This document shows, in pieces, positions 3,591-7,848 of a stretch of DNA of 34,677 nucleotides (position 1 is the stretch's first letter; the number at the start of each line of letters is the position of its first letter). The position numbers and the translations under genes were made by a program. The notes below the pieces were generated by a model. It ran no database searches. It was given only the letters and a program-made list of their open reading frames with translations, and was not told the DNA's origin. The stretch is from an uncultured Desulfosoma sp. (GTDB lineage Bacteria > Desulfobacterota > Syntrophobacteria > Syntrophobacterales > DSM-9756), in the NCBI GenBank assembly GCA_937960435.1, contig CALGPN010000045.1, positions 1-34,677 on the forward strand. Reading direction: 5' to 3'.

Positions 3591-4031
3591 CTACTTGCGG
3601 CTGCCCAGGGTCAGGGCAGTGGGTTGCTGGGCTTCGTGGGGATGTTCGGCCCCGCTGTAAACTTTGAGCTTTTTAAGAAGTTTGCGGCCCAGGCGGTTTT
3701 TTGGGAGCATGCCGCGCACGGCGAATTCAATGAGCCGCTCGGGGTGTTCCTGATTCAATTTTTTCGCCGTGGTGACCTTGAGGCCCCCGGGATAGCCGGA
3801 ATGACGATAGTATTTCTTCTGCTCCCATTTGCGCCCGGTCAGACGAACTTTCTCGGCGTTGATGACCACGACGAAATCGCCCGTATCCACATGCGGGGTG
3901 AAGGTGGGCAAGTGTTTGCCCCGGAGCCTTACGGCGATTTCACTGGCCAAACGCCCGAGGACCTGGCCCTCGGCGTCCACCACAATCCACTTTCTTCCGT
4001 TGGCATCAAACTTGGCACTGGTCGTTTTCAT
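3591..4031 (-). CDS. rplM: 50S ribosomal protein L13
   Basis: L13 is an early-assembly protein of the large ribosomal subunit. The 146-residue product shows the family pattern: [20 protein letters not shown] near residue 14, [19 protein letters not shown] near 43, the [10 protein letters not shown] segment, and [20 protein letters not shown] near residue 115. The ATG at 4029-4031 is chosen because a GGAGA ribosome-binding site lies 7 bases upstream and the N-terminus matches L13 length. A longer open frame reaches 4403 but runs through the promoter region and carries no family similarity. It is the first gene of rplM-rpsI, with a strong promoter 50 bases upstream. Confidence 0.98.
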
Positions 4032-4079: not shown

Positions 4080-4108
4080 CCTATAGGCAATCCCCCTCGG
4101 CTTGTCAA
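4080..4108 (-). promoter_or_regulatory. Sigma-70-type promoter for rplM-rpsI
   Basis: On the minus strand TTGACA (4108-4103) and TATAGG (4085-4080) are separated by exactly 17 bases, about 50 bases upstream of the rplM start. The -35 box is a perfect match to consensus. Assignment is by sequence match only. Confidence 0.75.
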
Positions 4109-4174
4109 GGAAAAGTTCCAACGAAAGCGCCTCGAAAGGATCCCTCACGGCACGGGAAAAAGGCATCAAAAGCC

Positions 4175-4204
4175 TTGACATCCCGCAACGGGCTCCTCTA
4201 TAAG
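4175..4204 (+). promoter_or_regulatory. Sigma-70-type promoter for the aromatic biosynthesis operon
   Basis: TTGACA (4175-4180) and TATAAG (4199-4204) are separated by 18 bases on the plus strand. A transcript starting near 4211 would carry a roughly 340-base leader before the DAHP synthase start, containing the aromatic leader peptide and two terminator hairpins. It is divergent from the rplM promoter 66 bases away. Confidence 0.78.
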
Positions 4205-4258
4205 AGGGTACCCTTCGGAAGCCCGCAGGGTGTGATGCTCGAAAGACAAGGACAGTCA

Positions 4259-4345
4259 ATGAACAGCAAGGGAACGGTTCGGCGCTTTTACTTTTATTAC
4301 GGGTGGTATTACGGCCCCGAAGGGGTTGGCCGACCACCGCGCTGA
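4259..4345 (+). CDS. Aromatic-residue leader peptide of an attenuator (28 aa)
   Basis: This short open frame of 28 codons ends at TGA 4343-4345 and is preceded by AAGGA with a 6-base spacing. Codons 10-18 (4286-4312) read FYFYYGWYY: two Phe, five Tyr and one Trp among nine residues. That composition is nearly impossible by chance in a GC-rich leader. Only 32 bases after its stop comes a perfect intrinsic terminator, followed by a second one and then the DAHP synthase gene. This is the layout of ribosome-mediated transcription attenuators such as trp and pheA leaders in enterobacteria. By analogy, a ribosome stalled for want of charged Tyr, Phe or Trp tRNA should prevent terminator folding and switch on the operon. 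The peptide, ribosome-binding site and hairpins are seen directly; the regulatory role is inferred. The antiterminator fold could not be settled by eye. Confidence 0.85.
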
Positions 4346-4377
4346 GCCGTCCGAAGCCGTAAGGACGTCGGCACCGA

Positions 4378-4413
4378 GGCCGTGGGCTAACCCCGAAGCC
4401 CACGGCCTTTTTT
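4378..4413 (+). terminator. Intrinsic terminator T1 of the aromatic attenuator
   Basis: A perfect 10-bp GC-rich stem, GGCCGTGGGC (4378-4387) with GCCCACGGCC (4398-4407) around a 10-base loop, is followed at once by six T residues (4408-4413). It begins 32 bases after the leader peptide stop and precedes the structural genes, as expected for an attenuator terminator. Confidence 0.9.
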
Positions 4414-4426
4414 ATGGACCTTGCCA

Positions 4427-4461
4427 GGCCGTGGGCGCAAGCTCACGGCCTTTTGTGTTTT
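4427..4461 (+). terminator. Second tandem intrinsic terminator T2
   Basis: A second 10-bp stem, GGCCGTGGGC (4427-4436) with GCTCACGGCC (4441-4450), is closed by a GCAA tetraloop of GNRA type and contains one G-U pair. It is followed by TTTTGTGTTTT. Its 5' arm is identical to that of T1, so the T1 3' arm (4398-4407) can pair perfectly with either T1 or T2 5' arm. Confidence 0.8.
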
Positions 4462-4467
4462 GGAGGT

Positions 4468-4523
4468 TCGGCACGGATGTGCCGATATCTTAAAAAAGGA
4501 GGGAAACCTTAACGTTTTCCTCC
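4468..4523 (+). promoter_or_regulatory. Two further hairpins in the leader just upstream of the DAHP synthase start
   Basis: TCGGCAC/GTGCCGA (4468-4474 with 4479-4485, GGAT loop) forms a 7-bp hairpin. A 10-bp stem with one wobble follows (4498-4507 with 4514-4523) and buries a strong AAAGGAGG sequence at 4495-4502. The ribosome-binding site actually used is probably AAGGAGG at 4535-4541, outside the stem. The role is unknown; RNA stability or translation control is possible. Confidence 0.4.
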
Positions 4524-4548
4524 CAACACGAGGCAAGGAGGATTGGCC

Positions 4549-5622
4549 ATGATCGTTGTCATGAAACCCGAACACACGGACGAAGAACTCAGGCAGCTTG
4601 TGGCGCGCGTGGAAAAGATGGGTTTGCGGACTCATCTGTCCCGGGGCGAACGGCGCACCATTGTCGGGATCATCGGCGAAAGGGAACTGATCCAGGAGAT
4701 CCCTTTTACGAGTTTTCCCGGTGTGGAAGCGGCGCATCCCATTCTACAGCCCTACAAACTGGTCAGCCGGGAATTCAAAGACGAAAACACGAGAATTTCC
4801 ATCGGGGCCCACGTGGAACTGGGCGGGCGGGCCATACCCATCATCGCCGGGCCTTGTGCCGTGGAAGGCCGGGAGGTTCTCGATGAAATCGCGGATGCCC
4901 TCCACGCCCTGGGGATTCCCATGCTTCGCGGCGGCGCTTTCAAACCCCGCACTTCCCCTTACAGCTTCCAAGGGCTCGGGGAATTGGCCCTCAAGTTCAT
5001 GAGCGACGTGCGGAGCCGCACCGGCATGCCGGTGGTCACGGAAGTCATGGATGCCCGAGACCTACTCCTGGTCTACAAATACGCCGACGTGCTCCAGATC
5101 GGCACGCGCAATATGCAAAATTTCAAACTCTTGACCGAAGTGGGACAGGTCGACAAGCCGGTGATCCTCAAACGCGGCATGTCGGCCACCATCAAAGAGT
5201 TCCTCATGTCGGCCGAATACATCGTGAGTCACGGCAACGAAAAAGTCATCCTGTGCGAGCGCGGCATCCGAACGTTTGAAACGGAAACCCGAAACACCTT
5301 GGATCTGAGCGCCGTGCCTTTGCTGAAAAAACTCACCCATCTGCCCGTCATCGTGGATCCCAGCCACGCCCTGGGCCGGACCGACCTCATCCCCGCCATG
5401 GCCTGTGCAGCCGTGGCCGCCGGAGCCGACGGCCTCATGCTGGAAGTCCATGTGCGGCCCCATGAAGCCCTGAGCGACGGATCCCAGTCCCTCACGCCCC
5501 AGGCCATGGCCGCCCTTCTGGATCGGCTGGAGCCCGTGGCCCAAGCCGTGGGCCGCACCATCCTGAGGACACCTCAGCAGGGCACAGGCGATGCGGCCAA
5601 GACGGCCGCCGGGGCATCGTAA
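4549..5622 (+). CDS. aroF: 3-deoxy-7-phosphoheptulonate (DAHP) synthase, type I-beta with N-terminal ferredoxin-like regulatory domain
   Basis: It condenses phosphoenolpyruvate and erythrose 4-phosphate to DAHP, the first step of the shikimate pathway. The 357-residue product has an N-terminal domain of about 70 residues ([18 protein letters not shown]...) like the ferredoxin-like regulatory domain known from Thermotoga maritima DAHP synthase, where it mediates feedback inhibition by Tyr/Phe. The catalytic barrel follows, with IAGPCAVEG near residue 100, [15 protein letters not shown] near 130, [10 protein letters not shown] near 185, LKRGM near 206 and DPSHALGR near 270. The ATG at 4549 has AAGGAGG 7 bases upstream; a TTG two codons earlier is also in frame. 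It is the first structural gene after the aromatic attenuator and 63 bases before the TyrA-AroB fusion. Enzyme activity (N-terminal domain) and transcription (leader) would thus both answer to aromatic amino acids. Confidence 0.95.
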
Positions 5623-5685
5623 CGGGCCCGGCGAAGGCCCACCGAGACCGGGGGAGCGCCGCGAACGACGGTGGATGGAGGAAGC

Positions 5686-7848
5686 ATGACGGAGAGCGTT
5701 TCGGATTTTCGTCGCTGGAAGACTCAACCCCGCATCGGGATCATCGGCGGTCTGGGAGCCATGGGGAAATTGTTTCACCGGTTTTTCGCCGACCATGGGT
5801 ACCCGGTCGCCGTCTCCGATGTGGCCACGCCGCTCACCAACGAAGACGTGATCGACCGATCGGATGTGGTGCTGGTCAGTGTGCCGCTCCACAAGGCTCC
5901 GGAGATCCTGGAGACTTTGGCGCCACGGTTTCGATCCGGTCAATTGGTGACGGATATCTCCTCCCTCAAGGTGCGCCCCATGAAAGCCATGGAAAAATCC
6001 GCGGCATGGTACGTGGGGCTGCATCCCATGTATGGGCCATACGTGAAGGATTTTGTCGGCCAGACCATGGTCGTCTGCCCCGGGCGTGTGGCCGAGGCCC
6101 CCTGGGAATGGCTCATGGAGGTGCTGCGCCGCGCGGGCCTCAAGATTCACGTATGTTCGGCGGATGAGCACGACCGCATGATGACCGTCATCCAGCTCAT
6201 CCCCCACGTGACGACGGTGGTCCTGGGCCATTGTCTTCGGGACATGGGGATCGACGCCGCCGAAAGCCTGCGTTACACGAGCCCCATCTACCGGCTGGAA
6301 CTGGACCTCATCGGGAGGCTCTTCGCCCAGGATCCCGCTTTGTATGCAGCCATCGCCATGGAAAACCCTTTTAAAGGGGAAGCGCTCGGGGTGTTGCGCC
6401 GTGTGTTTTCCGAAACGGCGGAGGCCGTGGAACAGGGCCGGTGGGAAGCGTTCTTGACGGCCTTCGAGAGGACTCGGTCCCATTTCGGCGATTTTTGTCG
6501 GCAGGCTCTCGAGGAAACGAATCGGCTTCTCACATGGCACCAGAACGCCAACAACCATGGGCGGAACTCCTCAAACATCGCCGGAGAAAACGCGGCCGAG
6601 GGCGGATCGGCGCCCCGAAACGACGCGTCGGTGGCTTCCGGCTTGGCAGGAGATTTCGGCGATCCCTCTTTCAGAACGGTCGCGGCAGGGGAAGGCGCGA
6701 CGGGGGCTGCACAAGCCCCAGTCAGGAACGACATCGTCACAGTGGTGCAGGACAGGACGTTGCGGTTTGCAGAAACCCCTTTTCCCGTGATCGTGGAACC
6801 CTACGGTGCGAGATCGCTCTTTTCGTTGCTGCCGGAGCGTTTCCCGAAGCGCCGCCCTTACGTGTTTGTGGACCGACGAGTGGCGACCCTGTGGGGAGAC
6901 ACCTTGGGCCGCCGACAGTTCGCCCAGGCCTGGATCGAATGGGACGCCCGCGAAGACAAGAAACGCCTCAAGACGGTGGAGGAACTCGCCCGGATCGCTC
7001 TGGAACGCGGCGCCGATCGGGGTAGTGTTTTCGTCGCCGTAGGGGGCGGCGTCACGGGGGATGTCATCGGCTTTTTGGCGTCGGTCTTCATGCGGGGGGT
7101 GCCCGTCGTTCAGGTGCCCACGACGCTTCTCGCCCAGGTGGACAGCTGCCTCGGAGGCAAAACAGGCGTGGATCTCGAAGAAGGGAAGAATCTCGTGGGG
7201 ACTTTTCATCATCCGGAGGCCGTTTTGGTGGACCCCGTTTTTCTGCAGACCCTGCCTGAGAGAGAATGGCAAAACGGCATGGCGGAAGTGATCAAATACG
7301 CCCTGTTGGATGATGGCGGGCTCATGGAGACTTTGGAGGCCCACGCGGAAACCTGCGGGAGTGACGGCGTTTCCTATCCGCTGCCGATCCCCATGACCCG
7401 GCACCTTGTGGCTCAGAGCCTCCAGCTGAAAGCCCGGTATGTGGCCGCCGACGAAAGGGATTTCGGGCTGCGCCAGCTGTTGAACCTGGGGCATACGAGT
7501 GGCCACGGCCTCGAGGCCCTCAGCGGATATACACTTCCTCACGGTCATGCCGTGGCCCTGGGCATGAGGGTGGCCGTGCGCATGGGGATCCTTATGGGGC
7601 TGACGGATCCGGACCTCGCACCTCGCCTGGATCGGGTCCTGCGCGCGTATCACCTGCCGCTCATGACGGCCCTTTCGGCAGAGCCCGAGGCCCTGCTTCG
7701 ACATATCCGGCACGACAAGAAAAAAGACGCCTCGGGGCTCGTGTGGATCATCCCCCGAGGAATCGGCCGCGTCGAAAGACGCACCGCCGTTCCGGAGCCG
7801 ATCGTCCGCGACGCTTTCCTTGCCCTACAGGAAGAGACCCTCGGGTGA
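5686..7848 (+). CDS. Fused prephenate dehydrogenase (TyrA) and 3-dehydroquinate synthase (AroB)
   Basis: One uninterrupted frame of 720 residues holds two shikimate/aromatic enzymes. Residues about 16-285 are TyrA-like: NAD-binding GGLGAMG at 21-27, GLHPMYGP with His near 113, and VIQLIPHVTT with a His near 174 in the position of the catalytic His of E. coli T-protein. Residues about 353-715 are AroB: GGGVTGDVIGF near 453, VPTTLLAQVDSCLGGKTGVD, and zinc ligands AEVIKYALL (E534), LNLGHTSGHG (H603) and LPHGHAVALGM (H619). TyrA oxidatively decarboxylates prephenate on the way to tyrosine; AroB makes 3-dehydroquinate from DAHP, the product of the gene just upstream. A 67-residue Ala/Gly/Ser/Asn-rich linker (6541-6741) joins them. 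The ATG at 5686 follows GGAGGAA. An internal GTG at 6742/6745 could start AroB alone, but its ribosome-binding site is poor. No chorismate mutase domain is present. Confidence 0.92.
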   Translation: MTESVSDFRRWKTQPRIGIIGGLGAMGKLFHRFFADHGYPVAVSDVATPLTNEDVIDRSDVVLVSVPLHKAPEILETLAPRFRSGQLVTDISSLKVRPMKAMEKSAAWYVGLHPMYGPYVKDFVGQTMVVCPGRVAEAPWEWLMEVLRRAGLKIHVCSADEHDRMMTVIQLIPHVTTVVLGHCLRDMGIDAAESLRYTSPIYRLELDLIGRLFAQDPALYAAIAMENPFKGEALGVLRRVFSETAEAVEQGRWEAFLTAFERTRSHFGDFCRQALEETNRLLTWHQNANNHGRNSSNIAGENAAEGGSAPRNDASVASGLAGDFGDPSFRTVAAGEGATGAAQAPVRNDIVTVVQDRTLRFAETPFPVIVEPYGARSLFSLLPERFPKRRPYVFVDRRVATLWGDTLGRRQFAQAWIEWDAREDKKRLKTVEELARIALERGADRGSVFVAVGGGVTGDVIGFLASVFMRGVPVVQVPTTLLAQVDSCLGGKTGVDLEEGKNLVGTFHHPEAVLVDPVFLQTLPEREWQNGMAEVIKYALLDDGGLMETLEAHAETCGSDGVSYPLPIPMTRHLVAQSLQLKARYVAADERDFGLRQLLNLGHTSGHGLEALSGYTLPHGHAVALGMRVAVRMGILMGLTDPDLAPRLDRVLRAYHLPLMTALSAEPEALLRHIRHDKKKDASGLVWIIPRGIGRVERRTAVPEPIVRDAFLALQEETLG

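Follow-up and report, generated by a model that had tools for sequence, protein, structure and literature searches.

The window, that is, the whole stretch of 34,677 nucleotides of the uncultured Desulfosoma sp. analyzed here, carries a DAHP synthase gene at 4549, preceded by an intergenic region that is bounded on its other side by a divergent gene starting near 4030. The nearest named relatives were two Desulfacinum records (90% identity). An initial annotation had described at this place a promoter, a ribosome-binding site, a 28-codon leader with FYFYYGWYY, two terminators, a DAHP synthase and a TyrA-AroB protein, all of which were confirmed. The extent that it had given, 4199-4461, does enclose elements of the attenuator, but the control elements start at 4175. 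The features are as follows.

4175-4204, + strand: sigma-70-type promoter, TTGACA at 4175-4180, 18-nt spacer and TATAAG at 4199-4204 (11 of 12 consensus positions; transcription start predicted)
4248-4252, + strand: Shine-Dalgarno sequence AAGGA of the leader (from the sequence)
4259-4345, + strand: leader peptide ORF of 28 codons, from ATG at 4259 to a TGA ending at 4345 (ORF, orthologous loci)
4286-4312, + strand: regulatory codons 10-18, F-Y-F-Y-Y-G-W-Y-Y, the predicted stall site (leader comparison, shuffles)
4313-4331, + strand: putative 1:2 hairpin inside the leader (fold z 0.18 against shuffles)
4321-4341, + strand: segment 2, the 5' half of the antiterminator (duplex of -27.5 kcal/mol, genus permutation)
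4376-4409, + strand: terminator T1, segments 3:4, -26.7 kcal/mol, with a T-rich stretch behind (terminator scan, orthologues, folding)
4397-4436, + strand: proposed relay helix 4:5, 3' arm of T1 (4397-4409) with 5' arm of T2 (4426-4436) (duplex of 11 uninterrupted pairs, -24.5 kcal/mol)
4426-4451, + strand: terminator T2, segments 5:6, -22.0 kcal/mol, with a T-rich stretch behind (terminator scan, folding)
4549-5622, + strand: DAHP synthase with DAHP_synth_1 and ferredoxin-like domains, referred to as type 1 (domain search)
5671-7848, + strand: TyrA-AroB fusion, prephenate dehydrogenase and 3-dehydroquinate synthase (domain search)

The leader contains five Tyr codons, two Phe codons and a single Trp codon. 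Its density of eight aromatic residues in a 12-codon open stretch was not matched by any of 2000 sequences obtained by dinucleotide shuffling of positions 4099-4548 (mean 3.6, maximum 7). The number of terminators found in the scan was not above chance (2 against 2.2 expected); the T1 and T2 hairpins folded far better than shuffled sequences (z -6.7 and -6.3). The 1:2 hairpin can form, with a fold no better than that of shuffles, and in computed folds the untranslated leader RNA forms T1. No promoter was listed by a scan whose rule requires the second hexamer to end in T, since TATAAG ends in G. Two further hairpins, CGGCAC..GTGCCG and GGAGGGAAAC..GTTTTCCTCC, were noted in 4470-4525, between T2 and the ribosome site of the DAHP synthase, and similar ones were seen by eye in two congeners.

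The conservation of the leader was analyzed in a sample of 39 genomes of the order, 30 of which have a type-1 orthologue of the window DAHP synthase at E 1e-120 or better. An aromatic-rich ORF precedes the type-1 gene in all 30, and 29 of these leaders are complete; that of G036 is cut by a contig end and was left out of the complete set and of the Phe count given below. The complete leaders, with runs such as YYYCFYYYP, YYYYYY and FFYYWYYF, comprise 758 residues, among them 154 Tyr, 54 Phe and 16 Trp; Tyr dominates in the set as in the window leader. A Shine-Dalgarno-like motif was found before all 29 under a lenient rule, and T1 is present at the 30 orthologous loci. A relative of TyrA adjoins the type-1 enzyme in 30/30 loci; AroB was found beside it in seven, all of the window's family. 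Two type-1-class orthologues from another family of the class, L010 and L011, have no leader of their own, and the gene preceding the DAHP synthase is trpA (by Pfam in L010, by likeness in L011).

These data bear on the explanation that the frame is a chance or unexpressed intergenic ORF. Short ORFs are common, yet a chance ORF would hardly exceed 2000 shuffles, recur at 30/30 orthologous loci and be restricted to the coding strand, a strong leader having been found on the reverse strand in 0/83 regions of the survey described below. Additionally, among the 73 named loci of greater distance (L036-L112) for which 500 nt of upstream DNA was at hand, 55 lack any stretch with five aromatic residues in 14, and at least seven were found only in L065. 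Conservation refuted this explanation, and its probability is negligible.

The leaders of the other DAHP synthases of the order were also analyzed. The second DAHP synthase of the window's genome (type 2) is 51% identical to the first and is the first gene of a trp operon, which matches anthranilate synthase I, a glutamine amidotransferase, the TrpD phosphoribosyltransferase family, indole-3-glycerol phosphate synthase, PRA isomerase and the PLP family of TrpB; by these matches the operon is assigned as trpE, G, D, C, F and B. Its predicted leader is MGFDRQARNVGFWWCWWWCVMHGCADGSVSH, with a GTG start. Among the 32 type-2 loci examined from the 39 genomes, the DAHP synthase adjoins trpE in every one, and at least three Trp in 10 residues were found upstream in 30 of the 31 loci with usable DNA (for example, WWCWWW); L116, which lies beside a masked stretch, has no 3-Trp leader. 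A third class (type 3), in which the DAHP synthase is fused to prephenate dehydratase and ACT, was present in 21/39 genomes and as a contig-end fragment in G029. At least five Phe in 14 residues stand before the type-3 gene in 16 of 18 loci with usable upstream DNA, typically as GFFFFFF; no such leader was found at L192 and L194, and L178, L182 and L183, whose flanks are cut, were kept outside the leader counts.

The prephenate dehydratase of the window's genome has chorismate mutase, and not a DAHP synthase, as its fusion partner. It belongs to a group of genes on contig C25 at about 152 kb (L196 / L255) encoding 3-dehydroquinate synthase II, PheA, AroE and AroA in that order, preceded by the leader MQTKKRHFCRGYFFGEACVG, with one Tyr and three Phe, and then by a terminator. 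The same leader reads FFFFGFYFF in two close relatives. Two different 3-dehydroquinate synthases are encoded in this genome, the AroB part of the TyrA-AroB fusion in the window and the type II enzyme in the pheA operon. At L274 (G020 C39), in a genome without the Phe-type fusion, a DAHP synthase carries an N-terminal extension that resembles chorismate mutase by eye, and G024 has a partial match similar to it. Judged from these leaders and gene neighborhoods, the codons of the leader match the operon in three isozyme classes of this order: Tyr/Phe with TyrA, Trp with the trp operon and Phe with the prephenate dehydratase fusion.

It had been proposed that the window leader would let one RNA switch sense the total aromatic amino acid state, that is, that a single leader reads Phe, Tyr and Trp together. 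The window leader does hold all three residues, and in its family Trp is kept in 6 of the 7 genomes holding the leader and GW in 5 of 7. Nevertheless, the trp operon of the same genome has its own DAHP synthase and leader, and the pheA operon its own leader as well; furthermore, among the 29 leaders of the order that are complete, 15 lack Trp and all have at least four Tyr. Hence the proposal was not supported as stated for this locus, where it appears rather unlikely. Leaders mixing the three residues do exist in other families. In a survey outside the order, covering the upstream regions of 83/91 genomes (L210 and L214 were among those dropped), a leader with at least seven aromatic residues in 12 was found in 20/83 regions and in 0/83 on the reverse strand, and 19 of these 20 strong leaders before DAHP synthases include Trp. 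The DNA before a second DAHP synthase was scanned in 13 of the 20 genomes and showed three Trp in 12 codons in 2/13, neither of which has a Trp run near its end. These leaders of other families in the phylum are candidates for true total-aromatic sensors. Leaders of other families, most of them mixing Phe, Tyr and Trp, were seen at L245, L247, L252, L257, L259-L261, L264, L265, L267-L273, L295, L296, L299 and L301, and they often end in PPVG or RPSA.

The number of Phe codons in the Tyr leader was compared with the isozyme repertoire. Type-1 leaders contain on average 1.0 Phe (range 0-2) in the 16 genomes with type 3 and 2.92 (range 2-4) in the 13 without it (Mann-Whitney p 1.2e-5, with G029 counted as having type 3 and kinship ignored). 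Counting G029 as lacking type 3 gave 1.07 against 2.71 and p 1.4e-4, again ignoring kinship. This genome was regrouped after the fact, and in favor of the Phe link, because of its type-3-like contig-end fragment, whose identity is 76% with type 3, against 52% with type 2 and 44% with type 1. The presence of type 3 changes six times on the best enzyme tree. Well-supported branches provide only two independent pairs, of which 1.6 go in the predicted direction, 0.4 are tied and none is opposite, and with two pairs a test on the tree cannot reach significance. We lean towards the view that a genome without the Phe-type enzyme tends to carry more Phe in its Tyr leader, on few independent events. 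The window leader, with two Phe and five Tyr, fits a genome without the Phe-type enzyme.

The leader tail, 4321-4341, can pair with 4376-4395, which comprises the 5' arm and loop of T1, and in this antiterminator GGGGTTGGCC (4322-4331) lies opposite GGCTAACCCC (4385-4394). Other genera have different antiterminator sequences, such as GTTCAGGGTAT with GTATCCTGAAC, TTCAGGTATGCTC with GAGCGCCTGGA, and GGTATGC with GCATACC. When the T1 targets were permuted among 15 genus representatives, the mean duplex energy fell from -19.7 to -16.8 kcal/mol in strength, and 0 of 2000 draws were as good as the own pairs. Taken singly, 12 of the 30 leader tails pair equally well or better with over half of the T1 arms of foreign genera, since the T1 arms of the genera resemble one another. 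The covariation shows over the whole set and is less visible genome by genome. A weak pairing of tail and T1 (-9.2) was found in G029, whose leader has an early stop. The attenuator parts and their conservation, as well as this covariation of the antiterminator over the genera, are direct observations. The comparison of related loci that the initial annotation had put forward as a check was in this way carried out, with the aromatic frame kept in 30/30, T1 in 30/30 and complementary arms (permutation 0/2000).

The folding of the growing RNA was computed for the two positions of the ribosome. With the RNA free from 4356, as with a ribosome at the stop codon, T1 and T2 were obtained. With the RNA free from 4323, as with a stalled ribosome, the antiterminator was obtained at 4396-4400 and the antiterminator together with the relay helix at 4437, whereas the equilibrium fold of the same state at 4412 and 4462 was T1 (and T2). 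The antiterminator must hence win kinetically, by the order of synthesis. Since the stop codon lies at the end of segment 2, a ribosome that finishes the leader would hide this segment and a stalled one would leave it free; this reasoning takes a general value for the ribosome footprint.

Based on these results, the locus is read as a ribosome-mediated transcription attenuator that would tune the DAHP synthase and TyrA-AroB to the charging of Tyr-tRNA, and here also of Phe-tRNA, with a relay between the two terminators (probability of about 0.85). Attenuation itself is held to be very highly probable, and conservation of frame, terminator and antiterminator supported the leader-peptide control of DAHP synthase that had been claimed. 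From the sequence we infer translation of the leader, stalling and a response to amino acids. When charged tRNA is ample, the ribosome would reach the stop codon at 4343-4345 and cover segment 2 (4321-4341), T1 (4376-4409) and then T2 (4426-4451) would form, and transcription would end. When it is scarce, the ribosome would stall on codons 10-18 and leave segment 2 free, and this segment would pair with T1 over its 5' arm and loop; the released 3' arm of T1 would then pair with the 5' arm of T2, and a single event would disable both terminators.

A riboswitch, a T-box or a protein-bound attenuator in which the ORF is incidental would show the same layout of terminator and antiterminator, which is common to all these devices, and ABC-transporter leaders of unknown type exist according to the accessible portions of one report (PMC2965389). 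The Rfam scan of the window nevertheless returned no family at its gathering score, the best of five sub-threshold matches in 4150-4560 being Xoo2 with 19.8 bits against 45, and a riboswitch or T-box was rejected on these scores. Furthermore, reading frame and amino acid class of the aromatic codons are preserved across lineages that differ in their antiterminator sequence, and in three isozyme classes the codons of the leader correspond to the operon behind it. This alternative is very improbable. The attenuator also matched no covariance model at curated score among the Rfam leader families (Trp, Phe, His, Leu and Thr leaders) and the T-box. It would work like the leader families and belongs to none of these sequence families.

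Concerning the tandem terminators, T1 and T2 have the stem core GGCCGTGGGC in common. This exact stem stands at two places in the genome, both of them attenuators (T1 of the window and C34:21508, see below), and a backward-read control pattern at one. An abundant repeat as the source of the shared arms was rejected, because the exact stem, the pattern searched, was found at two places only. The two look wired as a relay: pairing between the 3' arm of T1 and the 5' arm of T2 would allow a single antiterminator to inactivate both. Such a relay is to be expected, because a strong T2 left on would keep the operon silent even when T1 has been antiterminated. In the window, region 4397-4436 alone folds as the relay helix 4:5, and the minimum for the stalled RNA up to 4437, before the 3' arm of T2 exists, consists of antiterminator and relay helix.

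The 4:5 helix was further analyzed in the leaders of both kinds. At the threshold used, two terminators were found in 11/30 type-1 leaders, with one only in 19/30, and in 30/32 type-2 (Trp) loci, the exceptions being L116, with one terminator beside a masked run, and L131, with 15 nt upstream. The mirror helix 3:6, formed by the 5' arm of T1 and the 3' arm of T2, served as a control, since it would be equally expected if T1 and T2 were mere copies. In the 30 Trp leaders the 4:5 helix is uninterrupted in 29, with a mean of -19.0 kcal/mol and 0 of 1000 genus permutations as good, against 10 uninterrupted, -15.3 kcal/mol and 11 of 1000 for the mirror. In the 11 type-1 pairs, both helices are equally continuous (10/11 each), while the energies favor 4:5 in 10/11. 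In the alignment of both leader kinds (42 rows, four of them without the 10-mer register, leaving 38 pairs), single columns show C-G, T-G and T-A, or A-T, G-T and G-C. A C-A mismatch at one end of the helix was found in seven of the 38 pairs, which are seven Trp leaders of one genus.

Part of this pattern would also be obtained from an ordinary attenuator with T2 as a simple back-up, which would lower leak-through and remain unswitched by the pairing of T1. The 19 type-1 leaders with a single terminator are in agreement with it, as are the equal continuity of the two helices in the two-terminator type-1 leaders and the C-A mismatch in the seven Trp leaders; the likeness of the arms could go back to an ancient duplication, and drift by way of G-U wobble, with C changing to T first, could lie behind part of the asymmetry between 4:5 and 3:6 in the Trp leaders. 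However, the silencing expected from a strong unswitched T2, the better preservation of 4:5 in the Trp leaders and the restriction of the exact stem to two attenuators all argue against a back-up T2, which we consider possible but do not favor. The relay from T1 to T2, for which the Trp sister leaders show covariation and the window gives matching computed folds, is regarded as fairly probable, less certain than attenuation. In the his operon leader, the pairings A:B, B:C, C:D, D:E and E:F follow one another and only the last hairpin is known to be a terminator. Common to both systems is a series of alternating helices along which the signal is passed downstream; the difference is that two members of the series are terminators here. 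No relay in leader-peptide systems was found in the literature searched, as far as its accessible text goes; tandem terminators are described for the rimP leader in the available part of PMC2965389.

The second place with the exact stem, C34:21508, corresponds to a leader, MKNRIECCYSYYYGYGYLRRSARR, with a GTG start, a good Shine-Dalgarno site and two terminators, followed by a LivK/LivH-like ABC transporter. This locus of the window's genome (L333:434-800 and L338) has CCYSYYYGYGY as its Tyr run, and an antiterminator goes with the tandem terminators. Four to six Tyr are present in the transporter leader of 9 of 10 orthologues, the own one included, and G003 has none; five of these nine also contain one or two Phe or one Trp. 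Tails of the GGCGGTCTGCCC type match terminator arms of the GGGCAGACCGC type in 8/9 transporter leaders (L341 was not used). The substrate of the transporter is not named, because the NCBIfam scores lie below the curated cut-offs; tyrosine transport under attenuation is the prediction from the leader.

The initial annotation knew of no such leader for this type of operon in Desulfobacterota. Precedents before aroF nevertheless exist in Corynebacterium glutamicum and Acholeplasma, as far as the accessible portions of the sources tell. A leader peptide with Phe-Tyr-Phe was described for C. glutamicum aroF (PMC4046766; PMC11802643), and in the available text of PMC11802643 a response to Phe but none to Tyr is reported. 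This aroR-aroF attenuator resembles the present one in that a DAHP synthase operon is preceded by Phe and Tyr codons, and in the ribosome stalling, predicted here; judged on the parts of those articles at hand, the present one differs in the dominance of Tyr, the paralogous Trp and Phe leaders, the tandem terminators and the unrelated phylum. The Phe-not-Tyr response reportedly goes back to Neshat et al. in 2014. The uORFC-13-1 motif, a predicted uORF with a U run coding for at least one Phe and with a terminator before aroF, has 24 representatives in Acholeplasma and environmental sequences, and no Tyr leader is described in the accessible part of that report (PMC8632094). Nothing closer than these two was found in the literature searched; most subscription literature, including a 2004 survey of proteobacterial attenuators, was outside its scope, and an earlier prediction in this bacterial group is accordingly possible. 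Within what sequence can show, the reading as an aromatic-leader attenuator was confirmed; attenuators of this class were already known. What is probably new is the dominance of Tyr, the set of branch-specific leaders and the likely relay.

The E. coli pheA, pheST and trp attenuators combine leader codons with the 1:2 / 2:3 / 3:4 pairing logic. Leader codons and pairing logic are common to both systems; those of E. coli respond to a single amino acid (Phe or Trp) and include no entry enzyme of the shikimate pathway. E. coli has three DAHP synthases, AroF, AroG and AroH, each controlled by one aromatic amino acid through repressor proteins, whereas leader-peptide RNA switches are predicted for this order. 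The predicted circuit, in which three DAHP synthases each serve one branch and are each switched by the cognate leader, together with the Tyr transporter leader, the Phe-codon link and the two-terminator chain, has in our view an even chance of being right as a whole. If true, it would be an RNA counterpart of AroF/AroG/AroH, with the specificity of the isozyme readable from a peptide of ~25 codons, and the evolution of isozyme control would become testable from sequence, as leader codons should shift with the gain or loss of an isozyme. The relay, if true, would be a novel route to a tight off state, through two terminators opened by one pairing event, which would be useful in synthetic biology. 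The E. coli attenuators are named, and the repressor control of its DAHP synthases is touched on, in the accessible portions of PMC11802643. In the part available of a comparative survey, Tyr is assigned to T-boxes, and attenuators are given for His, Thr and Phe (PMC1262725); leaders dominated by Tyr, one of them before a transporter, would fill this gap.

Additionally, short ORFs with Tyr or mixed aromatic residues were seen before the DAHP synthase in L057, L069 and L092 (Gemmatimonadota) and in L065 (a Desulfurellaceae MAG), with the motifs YRYYYYYA, YRYWY, SYYY and NFYFYTYYWF in this set. They are perhaps independent or older cases.
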